NCBI GenBank assembly: GCA_031257095.1
Contig: JAIRPI010000010.1
Span: 1 to 44,501 of the forward strand
Source of the DNA: Mycoplasmataceae bacterium
GTDB lineage: Bacteria > Bacillota_I > Bacilli_A > Mycoplasmatales > Mycoplasmoidaceae
Direction of reading: 5' to 3'
Length of the DNA: 44,501 bases
Shown here piece by piece: positions 6,716 through 41,879 of the stretch. The notes beneath the pieces are model-generated. The model did no database searches. It saw nothing but the letters and a program-made list of their open reading frames with translations, and was not told the origin of the DNA. How positions within the stretch are numbered: position 1 is the stretch's first letter; every line of letters starts with the position of its first letter. The translations under genes and the position numbers were made by a program.

Positions 6716-6937
6716 TTAAATCAGATTGTGTTTTGTGAAAACTTCTAAAACAAACCGGTTAAACTCTTCCTGTTTTGCTCAACGAGCATCGTTCTTTTTT
6801 TCAAAAGCCTCTGCTCAATCCCTAAATCATTTTGGCGCCACGTTTATTCCTTTATTAATTATAACACATTGAAAAGTGACGCCGATTCAGTCTTCTCTAT
6901 TTGATTTAGTTATTTCATATTCTTTATTCTCTTTCAT
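6716..6937 (-). CDS. Small coiled-coil family protein, copy A
   Basis: 73 residues with UGA read as Trp (four times). The N-terminal module carries the conserved pattern EYEITKSN-x3-WIGVTFQCVIIN then VAPKWFRD, followed by a short charged helix (FEKKNDARWAKQEEFN) and the family ending VFTKHNLI. Similar proteins are encoded at 7064, 12500, 29132, 32694 and 33010. A ribosome site AGGAG precedes the ATG. Copy B lies immediately upstream on the same strand and is its closest relative, so the pair looks like a tandem duplication. The -35 box that other copies share (TTGAGA) is changed to TTAGGG here, so expression may be weaker. Function is unknown; I cannot place it in a named family. Confidence 0.75.
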
Positions 6938-7007
6938 TTCATCTCTCCTACACATATATTTACAAGAAAAAAATATTTTTTCCCTAAATATTTTCAAAAT
7001 TTTAAGA

Positions 7008-7063: not shown

Positions 7064-7315
7064 CTATTTTAAGTTGTTTCTCTTAAAAACTTCTATTACG
7101 TATTTATTAAATTCTAGCTGCGCTTTATTAAATTCTTCTTGTCTTGCTCAACGAGTGTCATTCTTTGCTCACCTTGCATCATTCTTTTTTTCAAATTCTC
7201 TAAATCACTTCGGTGCCACGTTAACTCCTTTATTAATTATATGACATTGAAAAGTGACACCGATTCAGTCTTCTTTGCTTGATTTTGTTATTTCATATTC
7301 TTTATTCTCCTTCAT
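7064..7315 (-). CDS. Small coiled-coil family protein, copy B
   Basis: 83 residues with UGA as Trp. The N-terminus is nearly identical to copy A (MKENKEYEITKS, then WIGVTFQCHIINKGVNVAPKWF). The helix is longer: it holds a NDARWAK/NDTRWAR duplication and an EFNKAQLEFNKYV repeat, ending VFKRNNLK. Thus copies differ mainly in the number of charged helical repeats. The start is ATG with GGAGG about 11 bases upstream. The promoter box TTGAGA-N17-TGTAAA lies at 7339-7367. Copy A is next downstream. Function is unknown; oligomerisation through the coiled coil is an inference. Confidence 0.8.
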
Positions 7316-7338
7316 TCTTGTATATACCTCCATATATA

Positions 7339-12499: not shown

Positions 12500-12733
12500 T
12501 TACTCAGTCTTTAAATTATTAAATTTAATGACTGATTCAAGTCTAGATTCAACTTTTTCTAGTCTAGTTTCAATACTAGCAACTTTTTCAACTAATGGAT
12601 CAAATCGTTTTTCGACAAATTCACTAAATCATTTCGGTGCTTTCACATCATTAATTATAACAAATTCGAAAATTGCACCTATTAGCCTAGTATCAGTTGC
12701 TTTGACTATTCTATATTGTTTATTACTTCTCAT
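12500..12733 (-). CDS. Small coiled-coil family protein, copy C
   Basis: 77 residues. It shares the N-terminal module (KQYRIVKATDTRLIGAIF, then IINDVKAPKWFSEFVEKRF) with copies F and G. The helix carries repeats of the form (V/I)E(T/S)RLE at about residues 52-66, i.e. heptads for a short coiled coil, and ends IKFNNLKTE. AAGGAGG lies just upstream of the ATG. The promoter box TTGAGA-N17-TGTAAA is at 12755-12783, back to back with the rplJ promoter. UGA encodes the Trp of PKWF, a residue kept in all copies. Function is unknown. Confidence 0.82.
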
Positions 12734-12754
12734 TCTTTCCTCCTTACACATATA

Positions 12755-12801: not shown

Positions 12802-12807
12802 TATAAT
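12802..12807 (+). promoter_or_regulatory. TATAAT -10 box of rplJ-rplL
   Basis: Perfect TATAAT at the head of the ~125-base leader before rplJ. It lies about 20 bases from the divergent copy C -35 box. Confidence 0.6.
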
Positions 12808-12932
12808 AACGAAGCATTAACCAAAGAAAGTAACTGGCTTGTCCTTAATTTGTTACCGAGGTGAATACACTTTTGTATCACAATAAATTGGTTAATTAAC
12901 CAATTGTGTTTGTGTTAATGCAGGTATAGGTT
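12808..12932 (+). ncRNA. Ribosomal protein L10 leader RNA
   Basis: A ~125-base untranslated leader directly before rplJ. It contains AAGAAAGTAACTGGCTTGTCC and distal arms (AATTGGTTAATTAACCAATT at 12885-12904) that can pair. Position, size and the L10/L12 target fit the L10 leader, in which excess L10(L12)4 binds the RNA and represses its own operon. A covariance-model search would settle it. Confidence 0.6.
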
Positions 12933-27228: not shown

Positions 27229-28728
27229 TTAGTAAACTTCAATATTAGAAATTTGTGGATTATTTTTAGAGTCAAGAATTTGCACTCGTATTTTATTTGT
27301 ATTGATAGCCGTGTTAATTTTTAAAATTCTTTTATATCCAATCGTTGTGAATGTTTGCATTTCTTTTGTTTGTCAATCGTTATCACTTGAAGAGTAACCT
27401 TTGCTACTGTCTCAATGCCCATCAAGGAAATCAATATTTTCTCACCGGTTATTCTGCCAAGCTTGCACTTGAAAAGATTTAATTTTTTGTCCATTGGCAA
27501 TGTTTTCTTGAAGCACAATATAGTTGAGTGTTTTATTTGTATCTAAATCGAGCTCTGTGGAATTAGTATTTTGTCCTAATCGATTACCAAAAGCTTGATT
27601 GATTTTTCTTTTATAATCTTTTAGCAAATTAACCTCATCAGTGGGGATTAATCCATCTTGATTAGGAGGGACATTCAAAATTAAGCCAGCGCCGCGACCA
27701 ACTGAGTGTAAATACATTTGAAATAAATAATCAGCAGTTTTCAATTGTTGACTAGCTTGTCAAAATCACTTATTTTTTGTGATAGAAGCATCACATTCAG
27801 CTGGCAATCAATAATGACCGTTAATATCACCCGTGTTTCATTTTAGTCAACATGCTCGATTTGATGTTTTATCTGTCCATTTATTAGCTAAAGGATATGT
27901 ACAATCAAAAGTATTTCAATTATCATCCCCCATATATCCTAATTCATTCCCACAAGTTCTAATATCAAGACCTTGCGACATAACCGCATCTGGTTGCAAC
28001 TTACGGATTAAATTAAAAATTCTATTTCATTGGTAATAACTAACATAGTCTCATGATCTTGTATCTTGTGGATTTTGAGGGTCAACCCCCCCCGCACCAC
28101 CATAATAGCCACCGTTTGGCGCACGATTTCACGCATCACAATCAAATCATACTTCTGAAATCTTACCATAATTGGTAAGTAACTCAGTTAATTGGTTACA
28201 GTAGTAGTCAATATAATGAGATGTAGTAAAGTCAGCACGAGAACGATCTCATGGTGAAAGATAAATACCAAATTTTAACCCGTACTTATTGCAAGCATCA
28301 GATACGTCTCTAACAACGTCGCCGTGTCCATTCTTATAATGCGACGAACTAGCAACAGAATGGTCCGTGTATGCACTAGGTCATAGGCAAAAACCATCAT
28401 GATGCTTGCAAGTTAAAACAACTTGTGAAAACCCAGCATCTTTGAAAGTTTTAACCCACTGATCAGCATCTAGATTAGCTGGATTAAAATCTTCGGGGTT
28501 TTCATTACCTCACCCTCATTGATTACTTTCGAACGTATTTATTCCAAAATGAACAAAAGCAGTCGTTTCCAATTTGTGTCAAGCTAATTGACGACTTGTT
28601 GGTGAATTTGAATAAGATAATTTACTTGGCGTTTTATGAAAACAAGAGGAAATTATAGGTACGAAAGTGATTGCTGCTATTGTAGAAAGAATCACAAAGA
28701 AGCACTTGTTATTTATTAATTGTTTCAT
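27229..28728 (-). CDS. Lipoprotein alpha-L-fucosidase (GH29)
   Basis: 499 residues with many UGA-Trp. Residues 1-29 are a lipoprotein signal with lipobox ISSC, so the enzyme is anchored outside. The catalytic barrel shows [45 protein letters not shown] and SEVWFDCDAW, where Asp196 matches the GH29 nucleophile. [18 protein letters not shown] closes the barrel. About 120 C-terminal residues resemble a beta-sandwich sugar-binding domain. It should release fucose from host glycans. A run of eight G (C on plus, 28086-28093) lies in the barrel near residue 213, in frame here. Confidence 0.92.
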
Positions 28729-29131: not shown

Positions 29132-29446
29132 TTGAGAAAAATAGGTGCTACTTTTGAATGTGTTATAATAAATAAGACTGTGAATAAACCACCAATTTGA
29201 TTCCAAGAATTTGAAAAGCGTAATAACGTTAGGTTTGATAGAATTGAAACTCGTTTATTAGAAAATGATGCACGGTGAGCAAAACAAGAAGAATTTAATA
29301 AATATGTTAGTGATTTTATTAAACAACAATTAGAGTTTAATAATCAACAAACTAAATTCAATGAACATGTTAGTGATTTCATAGAACAACAAGTTGAGTT
29401 TAATAAGCATGTGACAAATGTATTTAATAGAAATAATTTAAAATAA
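29132..29446 (+). pseudogene. Small coiled-coil family protein, N-terminally truncated copy E
   Basis: The frame reads IGATFECVIINKTVNKPPIWFQEFEKR, clearly the family N-terminal module, but the start codon, the KxYxITK segment, the -10 box and the ribosome site are gone. The -35-like TTGAGAAAAATAGG runs straight into the module, so a deletion joined promoter and gene; GGTG occurs at both expected ends. Possible starts are TTG 29132 or GTG 29180, neither with a ribosome site. The C-terminal helix is the longest of the family, with three (E)FN-x-HVSDFI(E/K)QQ-type repeats, ending VFNRNNLK. Either a decayed copy or a repeat reservoir. Confidence 0.65.
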
Positions 29447-32625: not shown

Positions 32626-32693
32626 ACTATATATGAGACAGATGAGAATTAATAAGTTTCTATCAAGAAACAACCGTGCGATGAGGTTTAATC

Positions 32694-32915
32694 ATGGCTA
32701 GACAATATAAAATAACAAAAGCAACTTACGAAAAACTAGTGGGTGTCATTTTCGAGTATGCTATAATTGATGATGTGAAAGCGCCGAAATGATTTACTGA
32801 GTTTGTTGAGAAACGATTCGAACCAGAGATTGCCAATATCAAAACTCGATTAAGTGCTTTAGAACATAATGACAAAGTAATCTTTGACATTCTTAAACGT
32901 AATAACCTAAGATAG
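32694..32915 (+). CDS. Small coiled-coil family protein, copy F
   Basis: 73 residues with UGA as the Trp of PKWF. The N-terminus MARQYKITKATYEKLVGVIF is nearly the same as in copy G, as is the DVKAPKWF-x-EFVEK segment. The helix is short (IKTRLSALEHNDKVIFDILK) and ends RNNLR. GAGG lies upstream of the ATG. Copy G follows on the same strand with its own promoter. Function is unknown. Confidence 0.82.
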
Positions 32916-33009: not shown

Positions 33010-33261
33010 ATGGCTAGACAATATAAAATAACAAAAGCAACGTACAATCGACTCGTCGGAGTGATTTTCGAGTATGCTATAATAAATGATGTGAAAGCAC
33101 CAAAATGATTTAGCGAATTTGTTGAGAAACAATTTAAACCATTGGCTGCTGATGTCACCGATTTAAAACTCAGAATGGCGAATGTTGAAACTCGATTAGG
33201 TGCTTTAGAACATAATGTTGAAGTAATCTTTGACATTCTTAAACGTAATGATTTGCATTAA
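33010..33261 (+). CDS. Small coiled-coil family protein, copy G
   Basis: 83 residues. The first ~45 match copy F almost residue for residue, and so does the ending ALEHNVEVIFDILKRNDL. Between them copy G has about ten extra residues, with (L/V)xxRL(A/G)xxE-type heptads, so F and G differ by a coiled-coil repeat unit. GAAGGAG precedes the ATG. The tandem pair lies between the rubredoxin operon and the mgtA leader. Confidence 0.82.
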
Positions 33262-37322: not shown

Positions 37323-38330
<1,008 letters not shown>

Positions 38331-38346
38331 CTACGAAAATATCTGG

Positions 38347-38352
38347 TATAAT
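38347..38352 (+). promoter_or_regulatory. TATAAT -10 box of the lipoprotein gene
   Basis: Perfect TATAAT ending 6 bases before the ATG at 38359, so the transcript is probably leaderless. Confidence 0.55.
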
Positions 38353-38358
38353 ATACAT

Positions 38359-38851
38359 ATGAGAAAAATAAATTTATACAAGAGCTTGTCTCTTGTTTTA
38401 ATAGGGGGGGGGTGCTTTAGCAGCCATTCCCATTGCATTAACAAGTTGTAAGAAAAAAGATAAGGGTGGTGAGGATTTAAAAAAAGTTGATAAATATTTG
38501 AATTTAACTTCAAATAAAGTTACATGGGGTGGGGACGTTACCTCACAGAAACAAGGTAGTAATTCAATTGGAACTCTTAAAGTTGAAAATACGATGTTAA
38601 TTGGTTTTTGTACGAATTCTAATCCGAAGGTTAATATTGATAATAAAAATGAAATTTTCATTACGGGTGCTAATTCTTCGGGAGTGAACTTTATTAAAAT
38701 CATATTCAATCCAACCGATCCAACAACATTACCAGTTAATACTGGAACCTATACATTAACATTTGAGGCAACGATAACAAATCTCGATAGTCCATTTACA
38801 CCAATAGAAAAATTCATTATTACTGGTATTGAATTGGTCGTTACGGCCTAA
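38359..38851 (+). CDS. Phase-variable lipoprotein, in the OFF state here
   Basis: From ATG 38359 the frame begins MRKINLYKSLSLVLIGGG and then stops at a TAA after 30 codons. The tract at 38404-38412 has nine G. With eight (or eleven) G the frame continues as GGGALAAIPIALTSC, a textbook signal peptide with a TSC lipobox, into the 117-residue frame that ends at 38851 (163 residues in all). The mature part is polar, beta-rich and has no Trp codons read as UGA; it ends in repeats of Thr/Ile-rich strands that suggest an Ig-like fold. I do not recognise the family. A sequencing error in the tract is the alternative. Confidence 0.8.
38404..38412 (+). repeat. Poly-G tract of 9 in the lipoprotein signal sequence
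   Basis: Nine G in an AT-rich genome, located between the hydrophobic core and the lipobox. Gain or loss of one base changes the reading frame; eight G restores it. Confidence 0.9.
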
Positions 38852-38951: not shown

Positions 38952-41879
38952 ATGTTCGTTAATCTCTGAAACCATACATGTTATAGTTTACTCTCATCAA
39001 CAACACGAATAGATGATTTAATTCAAAGTGCAATAGACAATAAACAGAAGTATGTTGCTATGATTGATAGCGATAACATGCATGGTTCAATTGAATTTTA
39101 TCATGCATGTAAGAAAAATAACTTATTGCCAATTATTGGTTTACAAATAGAAGTTGACAAACAGACTATTCTTTTATTTGCATTGAATAGTAATGGTTTT
39201 CATAATCTTGTGAAAATCTCATCATTTATTTTAACCAATAAAGATAAAAGTGCATGAGATTGAAAGGATTTTATTGATGATATTGTTGTTGTTGTTAACA
39301 ATATTGACAACTACAAAGATCTAAAAAAGCATAAGTATCTCTATAGCTATGAACAAAATGCTAGTAACCCCATTGCGATAAAGGAATGTTTTTGCCAGAC
39401 AAAAGAAGATTTATACTTTTTAGATATTTTATATTGTTTAAATCACGACCTTTTGTATGATGACATGGAAGAAGATAAAAAACATAATGATGTTTTTATT
39501 TCTCATGAGCACATTAAAAAAGTATTTAGTGAACAAGCATTAAAAAATTTAGAAGAGTTATTGCCTCATTTTAATCTTGAATTAGATCTAAATAAACAAA
39601 TGCATTTCACCAAATACAACGAGAAATATAAATCAATTGATTTATTAAAAACTCATTGCAAAGAAGGTTTAAAATATCGATTAACTAAATACCAATACCC
39701 TAATTACCCGTTAAGTTACATTAACCAATTAAAACACGAACTAGAAGTTATTGAGCAAATGAATTTTGCTGATTACTTTCTTGTTGTTCAAGACTATGTT
39801 AATTTTGCCAAGCAAAATGGGATATTAGTTGGGCCTGGAAGAGGAAGCGCAGCAGGTTCACTAATATCCTATTTACTAGGAATAACGGCCATTGATCCAA
39901 TTCAATATGAATTAATTTTTGAAAGATTTCTAAATTCATCAAGAAAATCAATGCCAGATATTGACGTTGACTTTCTTGATGAACGAAGACAAGAAGTTAT
40001 TAATTATATGTTTGAAAGATATGGGTATGAAAAAACAGCACACATCATAACTTTTCAAACAATAAAAGTAAAATCAGCAATTAAAGATGCGGGAAGAGTC
40101 TTGGGTTATAATTTTAAAACTTTAAATCAAATTACTGCGCATTTTCCATTCATGATTGAAGAAATTAATGGTGAACAATTGAAACAAATGATTGAAGGTA
40201 ACAAAGCATTATCATTAATTGCAAAACAATATAAAGAATTGTTTGCCGTCGTTTTTAAGATAATTGGCATTCCACGACAAATTGGTGTTCATGCAGCGGG
40301 AATTGTCATTGGTGATCAACCATTATGAAACTTAATTCCCGTTGCTGCATATAGTGATGGAACTTTAATTACCCAATACCCAATGGAATATTTAGAGGCA
40401 TTTGGATTAATTAAAATGGACATTCTCGGTTTAAGTAATTTAGCAATTATTGATAAAACAATTAAACTAATTGCTAACACGCATCATATCAAAATTGATA
40501 TTCATAATATTCCACTTGATAATACGAAAGTATTTGATCAATTATCTAGTGGGGATACAGTTGGTATTTTTCAATTTGAATCAGATGGAATGACTAATTT
40601 GATGACCAAAATAAAACCACGCACAATTGAAGATTTATCTATTGTGTCATCATTATATCGTCCCGGCCCACAAAAAAACATCAACACTTATATTGAAAAT
40701 CGTAATCATCCAGATAAGATTAAATACTTAAATGATGATTTTAAAAAGATTTTAAGCCCAACTTTCAATATCATTATCTACCAAGAACAAGTTATTGAAA
40801 TAGCAAAAAAAATTGGTAGTTTCAATAATGTTGAGGCAGACAACTTTCGTAGAGCAATAACTAAGAAGGACACTACCCAATTAACAAACTTTAAAACAAC
40901 ATTTATTAAAAATGGCCAACAACACGGATATACTGACAAGCAATTAGAGGAATACTATGCATACATTTTAAATTTTGGTGAATACGGTTTTAACCATTCG
41001 CATTCAATTGCTTATGCATATGTTTCTTATTGACTTGCTTACTTAAAAACGATGTATCCATTAGAGTTTTTAACAACCCTGTTAAACAATTGTAATGGGG
41101 CAATCGATAAAATTAAGGGATATGTGCAATATCTTAAAACAAAAGGAATTAAATTACTACCACCATCAATCAATGATTCACAATTTGAATTTAGTGTCCA
41201 CCATAAAGATATCGTTTTTGGTTTAAGTGCGGTTAAAGGATTGGGAATTAGTGTTATCACTAAAATCATAACTGCACGTGAAAAAGTGGGTGGTGCATTT
41301 AAAGATTACCAACACGCAATCAAAGAATTAAACGATAACGGCGTTGGTTTAAAAACAATTGAAACGTTAATTAAGATTGGTGCATTTGATTGTGTGTTAA
41401 ACGGTAAGACACGATATTGATTATTAATGAACTACGAATCTTTCTTTGAAAAAATAGTTAGTTTACCAATTAACGAGGTAACTGTTAACGAAGAAATCAA
41501 TCGCCAATTAGAACAATACCAATATGAGTTAATTGGGTTGTCATTTAACGAACATCCATTAACAAAAATTAAAGCTAATTACTTATCTTCTAAGAAAATT
41601 GTTGATTTAGCCAAAGCAACAACAATTGGCCAGGTTTATAATGTTATTGTAACATTAGCAAACCTACGAACAATAAAAACAAAAACCGGTTTAGATATGG
41701 CATTCTTAACCATTGAAGACGATACATATTTAATTAATAAAGTAGCCTTATTCCCCGGTTTATATACAAAACTATACCCGACATTAGCGATAAATGAGAT
41801 CTATACAATGACTATCAAACCAACCACCCAGGGATACCAATTGTTATCTGCTGATAAAATTAGTAAATTAAAGCATTAG
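38952..41879 (+). CDS. dnaE: DNA polymerase III alpha subunit, DnaE type
   Basis: 975 residues with UGA-Trp. The polymerase core is intact: GPGRGSAAGSLISYLLGITA near 294-313, catalytic PDIDVDF near 335-341 and a second Asp further on, AKLKT-like helix, then helix-hairpin-helix (GVGLKTIETLIKIGAFD) and OB fold (IGQVYNVIVTLANLRTIKTK). The PHP domain is degenerate: the usual HLHVHTEYS reads NLWNHTCYS and TDHGNM reads IDSDNM. In low-GC bacteria DnaE extends primers before handing over to PolC (21258). Start ATG 38952 gives the standard FVNL opening. Confidence 0.95.

Follow-up and report, generated by a model that had tools for sequence, protein, structure and literature searches.

A nine-G tract in the signal peptide of an orphan lipoprotein gene, a putative contingency locus of an uncultured code-4 mollicute

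The G9 tract and the gene behind it

Does a run of nine G inside a predicted signal peptide act as a genetic switch, or does it mark a gene that has simply been lost? In the stretch of DNA analyzed here (44,501 nucleotides, referred to as the window), the comparative sequence data make it highly probable that the tract belongs to a slipped-strand contingency locus, through which an uncultured code-4 mollicute would phase-vary a small surface lipoprotein. Very probably the gene is turned on and off by changes in tract length, a type of switch that mycoplasmas are already known to use. The genome of the window, G000, is a MAG of 665 kb in 27 contigs, and its GC content was about 31% over those stretches that were read. 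Translation table 4 was used because the long genes of the window contain in-frame TGA codons.

The gene starts with an ATG at 38359-38361 (+ strand). The tract begins 45 nt from this ATG and comprises exactly nine G at 38404-38412 (+). It covers codons 16-18, which belong to the hydrophobic segment of the signal peptide; relatives carry equivalent tracts. The preliminary description had stated that the frame with nine G ends after 30 codons, and this proved correct: the ATG frame as assembled (38359-38451, +) yields MRKINLYKSLSLVLIGGGCFSSHSHCINKL, 30 codons in code 4, and then meets a TAA. A second frame (38411-38851, +) runs through 146 codons before it reaches a TAA at 38849-38851; it starts with GALAAIPIALTSCKKKDK, that is a lipobox followed by the basic and polar beginning of a mature lipoprotein. 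The lipobox L-T-S-C lies at 38438-38449 (+), and its cysteine is residue 30 of the lipoprotein frame when numbering starts at the ATG, as it is in signal peptides of relatives. Read in that frame (MRKINLYK... LTSC), the sequence has the basic N-terminus, the hydrophobic stretch and the lipobox cysteine of a type II signal peptide; the preliminary description, too, had named a lipoprotein signal here. Cys30 would then be lipidated and the protein exposed at the cell surface.

Upstream, an extended -10 promoter element, TGG-TATAAT, was read from the sequence at 38344-38352 (+). It was not picked up by a two-hexamer promoter scan; its TATAAT-N6-ATG spacing is that of a lipoprotein family in the related genome G002, described below. 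With the extended -10 element so near, the predicted transcription start falls on or adjoins the ATG, and the mRNA is therefore probably leaderless. The divergent neighbor, 43 bp away, is gapA, encoding GAPDH (37323-38315, -). Downstream follows an intact gene (38952-41879, +), the product of which we take, by sequence recognition rather than family search, to be a DnaE-type DNA polymerase III alpha.

The preliminary description had pointed to poly-G in an AT-rich genome, and the tract is far above chance expectation. Dinucleotide shuffles of the window gave an expected G9 count of 0.01, and the G runs actually present are three of length 5, none of 6 to 8 and one of 9. The long open frame past the tract, noted before as well, turned out to be of high coding quality. 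Measured against 28 genes of the window, its codon-usage score was +23.3, whereas the other five frames (two sense, three antisense, each with 1 to 14 stops) scored between -0.7 and -35.9. GC content over the three codon positions was 0.36/0.40/0.23, compared with 0.40/0.31/0.21 in the genes. Because of this codon-usage score and the gene-like codon-position GC, the 38411 frame is a real gene without decay, under coding constraint now or until very recently. The length of the tract sets the reading frame of a genuine coding sequence.

ORF callers list the lipoprotein frame only from a TTG at 38498 (117 aa), and this standard choice of start would turn the tract into noncoding upstream sequence. 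We find this hardly credible, since the coding signal is already present before the TTG, the signal peptide encoded upstream is homologous to those of relatives, and the scan gave no promoter-like site just upstream on the same strand.

The mature protein is an orphan. Neither the 36 genomes of the genus nor the genome_contigs set yielded a homolog, and searches with the protein against Pfam, NCBIfam, PHROGs and PDB gave no credible match (none at all in Pfam, nothing above the cut-off in NCBIfam). The LRR_5 domain of BspA-type leucine-rich repeat surface proteins, present in other tract genes of the genus, was not found in it by the Pfam search. An AlphaFold single-sequence model was of low confidence (pLDDT 46), and a pattern search of the viral_contigs set for the tract region gave no match. 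The single weak match within the own genome (C5:165543, L025) was dismissed as chance: it contains an internal stop, and at that place the opposite strand makes the better coding sequence.

Some further features of the window may be recorded here. A G8 run at 28086-28093 lies in frame inside a gene for an alpha-L-fucosidase (GH29-type) lipoprotein (27229-28728, -) and is possibly a second contingency tract. A small protein of 80-100 aa occurs in six copies (32676-32915, 33010-33261 and 29132-29446 on the + strand; 12500-12751, 7064-7333 and 6716-6997 on the - strand), which share a similar N-terminus, K.YKITKAT...VG..FE..IIN...APKWF.EF.EK, and a coiled-coil end; only one copy weakly resembles DUF16. 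An ordinary ribosomal protein L10 leader RNA (Rfam RF00557) was detected at 12803-12921, just above the gathering score.

Equivalent tracts in the genome and in the genus

G000 as a whole contains 19 G/C runs of at least 8, against about 0.65 expected from a first-order model; runs of exactly 7 numbered only five, with 3.2 expected. In 179 kb of this genome the G/C spectrum was bimodal (5, 2, 14, 4 and 1 runs of length 6, 7, 8, 9 and 10), and A/T runs dropped steeply (193, 30 and 2 for lengths 7, 8 and 9); this sample was picked around the tracts, which makes the counts over the whole genome more reliable. All 19 tracts were read individually. Thirteen fall in the N-terminal part of an exported protein: within its cytoplasmic leader, within its signal peptide or just past the hydrophobic stretch. 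Seven of the thirteen keep the frame and six do not, the call at C5:131088 assuming that the promoter-proximal ATG is the start. The remaining six lie within genes, mostly encode glycine and are in frame in five cases. BspA-type or other leucine-rich repeats were seen on some products of the tract genes. Among close paralogs of G000 with homologous tracts, 68-73% identical, L018 has a G8 in frame, while L023 has a G8 in frame at 1915 and a G7 out of frame at 674. Another pair, of 64% identity, has a C8 out of frame in L013 and in frame in L017.

Could the ninth G be an assembly error, the true tract being in frame and the gene constantly expressed? The source is a MAG and the homopolymer is nine long, which would fit. 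On the other hand, the housekeeping genes of the window are intact despite 44 A/T runs of 7-8, and out-of-frame tracts recur across many genes and in other assemblies. We therefore regard an artefact as very improbable.

The same design was found in relatives. Of the 36 genomes of the genus, 30 contain one or more G/C runs of length 8 or above, and in several other species a G8 falls within the signal peptide of an exported protein or lipoprotein (for example L185, with MKKRILTTIGFGLLTTGGGASIVSLNLSSC; L190, with MNLNKSKILTPIIMSFIFLTGGGAASLLSSC; L106; L121; L125). The example in L125 (genome G033), MKRLKLLTTISLGLLGGGLLTSIPLISTSC, carries its G8 in frame, 45 nt past the ATG, and its lipobox cysteine at residue 30, both positions being exactly those of the window gene. 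Apart from G033, signal-peptide tracts were detected in G027, G026, G009, G023, G029 and G003, the last of which (L180) has two tandem genes with a G8 out of frame. Other species have a signal-peptide class M(K/R)RINLIKTI...LTSC, to which the window signal peptide corresponds in its N-terminal half, with Cys30 in both; a match of this score was reached by 0-2 of 2000 shuffles.

As a side observation, the gene divergent from gapA in L144 of G033 is again a lipoprotein gene. It has a similar signal peptide, MKKTKLIGTLSLVMVSGGLMTTIPFISTSC, a body of BspA-like repeats and a G7 tract at another position than in the window gene. The gene next to it carries a G8 that touches its TATAAT.

The richest comparison was provided by G002, in which one signal peptide, MNKTKIGFSLLGIALI-GGG-IGLSTSLTSC, precedes the very different mature proteins of 20 lipoprotein genes (L293-L312). 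In all 20 the G tract starts 48 nt past the ATG, at codons 17-19. Its length is 8 in ten genes, 9 in six, and 11, 7, 6 and an interrupted 5 in the others, leaving 11 genes in frame and 9 out. In seventeen of the 20, a C7-C12 tract also adjoins the TATAAT on its upstream side, 16-18 nt ahead of the ATG. Because of this promoter C tract and the G tract in the signal peptide, each such gene likely has two independent switches. Among paralogs and relatives, homologous loci were thus found in both frame states and with varied tract length.

Taken with the tract itself, its frames, the coding quality, the genome-wide excess of tracts and their placement in exported proteins, these differences in length and frame were all directly observed. 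The contingency reading, already put forward in the preliminary description, is strong because of the comparative part of this evidence: the G002 paralogs that vary in tract length and frame, the G033 gene with the same 45-nt offset and an in-frame Cys30, and the paralogs within G000.

We propose that slipped-strand mispairing during replication would alter the number of G inside the signal peptide. Tract lengths that keep the frame would give a prolipoprotein with Cys30, to be lipidated and displayed on the membrane; with other lengths, translation would end after about 30 codons and release a dead-end peptide. The lipoprotein would be single-copy and the assembled sequence its OFF state. MutS was absent from all 36 genomes of the genus in a search that was positive in 11 of 14 control genomes, and replication slippage may well change the tract length within the window species. 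The gene had been described earlier as switched off. This holds for the assembled consensus, which is out of frame, and not necessarily for each cell.

A fixed pseudogene, its frame lost once and the sequence now decaying, might also be envisaged, as the sole assembly is out of frame and the body is an orphan. However, 146 stop-free codons with a strong codon-usage signal and a tract at the position it takes in the intact lipoproteins of relatives make this highly unlikely.

Slippage of the polymerase or the ribosome on the G9 could instead supply some in-frame product, and hence low expression without any change in the DNA. Ribosomal frameshifting at a G10 was indeed raised for the P48-like protein of M. 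agalactiae, which was detected although its gene is out of frame (PMC2824730), and poly-A transcriptional slippage in Buchnera is mentioned in PMC2831843. Such slippage needs no differences in DNA length or frame, yet the homologous tracts of relatives show them. As a sole explanation we consider it unlikely, somewhat less so than decay of the gene or an artefact; it might act on top of a DNA switch.

Leader RNA and tracts at other levels

Another observation concerned a 5' leader element of about 125 nt, which gave about 85 matches in 9 of the 36 species, roughly a dozen of the weakest being probably chance or reverse-strand matches. It was found in G023, G024, G026 and G027 and, weaker, in others; examples are L174 6482-6606 (+), L177 2382-2504 (-), L173 4117-4240 (+) and L168 3917-4041 (-), with further stretches in L162-L169 and L194-L223. 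The element spans from about 6 nt past the TATAAT to shortly before the ATG of genes for exported proteins or lipoproteins, and high-scoring copies contain a G7-G10 near the 5' end. In the consensus fold this G tract is paired with a U/C-rich strand, and a terminator-like hairpin stands at the end. Covariation was strong: both sides were changed in 27 of 36 pairs in an alignment fitted to the model, and the covariation seen there was reached by 0 of 500 shuffles; in an unfitted alignment of ten copies, the count was 16 of 36 pairs. Neither the leader RNA nor the window locus had a credible counterpart in Rfam. The leader RNA is absent from G000, where a model hit at a gene end in L015 was rejected as due to chance.

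Tract placements at three levels were thus seen in the sequences of relatives: poly-C or poly-G by the -10 element, poly-G in the leader RNA and poly-G in the signal peptide. Length of the leader tract may control expression. That homopolymer switches, layered at promoter, leader RNA and signal peptide, control the exported-protein repertoire of the genus is a tentative proposal, which we hold to be possible rather than probable. If true, the leader RNA with its variable poly-G helix would represent an RNA attenuator of a new class, in which tract length does the tuning.

Tracts were also noticed in methyltransferase and restriction-modification genes of relatives: a G9 in an N6_Mtase gene (L128, 1500-1508), a C9 in a D12 methylase gene (L135, 1502-1510) and a G8 in an HsdS specificity domain (L118, 1501-1508). 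These genes are candidate phasevarions.

Relation to known variable surface proteins

The closest precedents of the window locus are the poly-G lipoproteins P68 of M. bovis and P48-like of M. agalactiae. The tract of P68 ranges from 8 to 10 G between strains, nine giving the full-length product, and the P48-like gene follows the same poly-G logic with a G10 (PMC2824730). All are mollicute lipoproteins in which a G8-G10 in the 5' coding region puts signal peptide and lipobox in or out of frame. For P68 the length difference between strains was shown, whereas the window gene is known from one assembly; its tract is located within the hydrophobic segment of the signal peptide, and kinship in sequence is not established, the window protein being an orphan. 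A poly-G is also present in the 5' region of every spma lipoprotein gene of M. agalactiae (PMC2824730). The Spma system resembles the present one: different mature proteins carry a common signal peptide, and every gene has a poly-G at its 5' end. Their tract, however, is in the untranslated region and not in the signal peptide, a 5'-leader arrangement that does occur in relatives of the window genome.

Ca. Mycoplasma girerdii, likewise an uncultured mollicute, offers a parallel: metagenome reads revealed repeat-length variants of its surface-protein genes, and a mod gene is under a G8 (PMC5476646). Its BspA-like and mod genes share with our locus the switching of surface proteins by repeat length, the majority state often being OFF. 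There, mostly dinucleotide repeats are involved and variation was shown in reads, whereas the window locus is a G homopolymer in an assembly. Active length variation of a poly-G was reported for a methyltransferase (PMC9465063). The surface proteins Vaa of M. hominis and P78 of M. fermentans, as cited in PMC2831843, are turned ON and OFF by reversible frameshifts in a 5' homopolymer too, which is poly-A there and poly-G in the window.

Among the open-licence papers searched, we found none that describes the scale seen here, a cassette in which a signal peptide comes with one tract at the promoter and another that sets the frame, or the leader RNA. Poly-G switching of signal peptides, known for a few lipoproteins of ruminant mycoplasmas, would be a widespread strategy in this uncultured mollicute genus. 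A single cassette of signal peptide plus tract can serve many different mature proteins, and metagenome reads could be used to gauge surface variation in organisms that nobody can culture.
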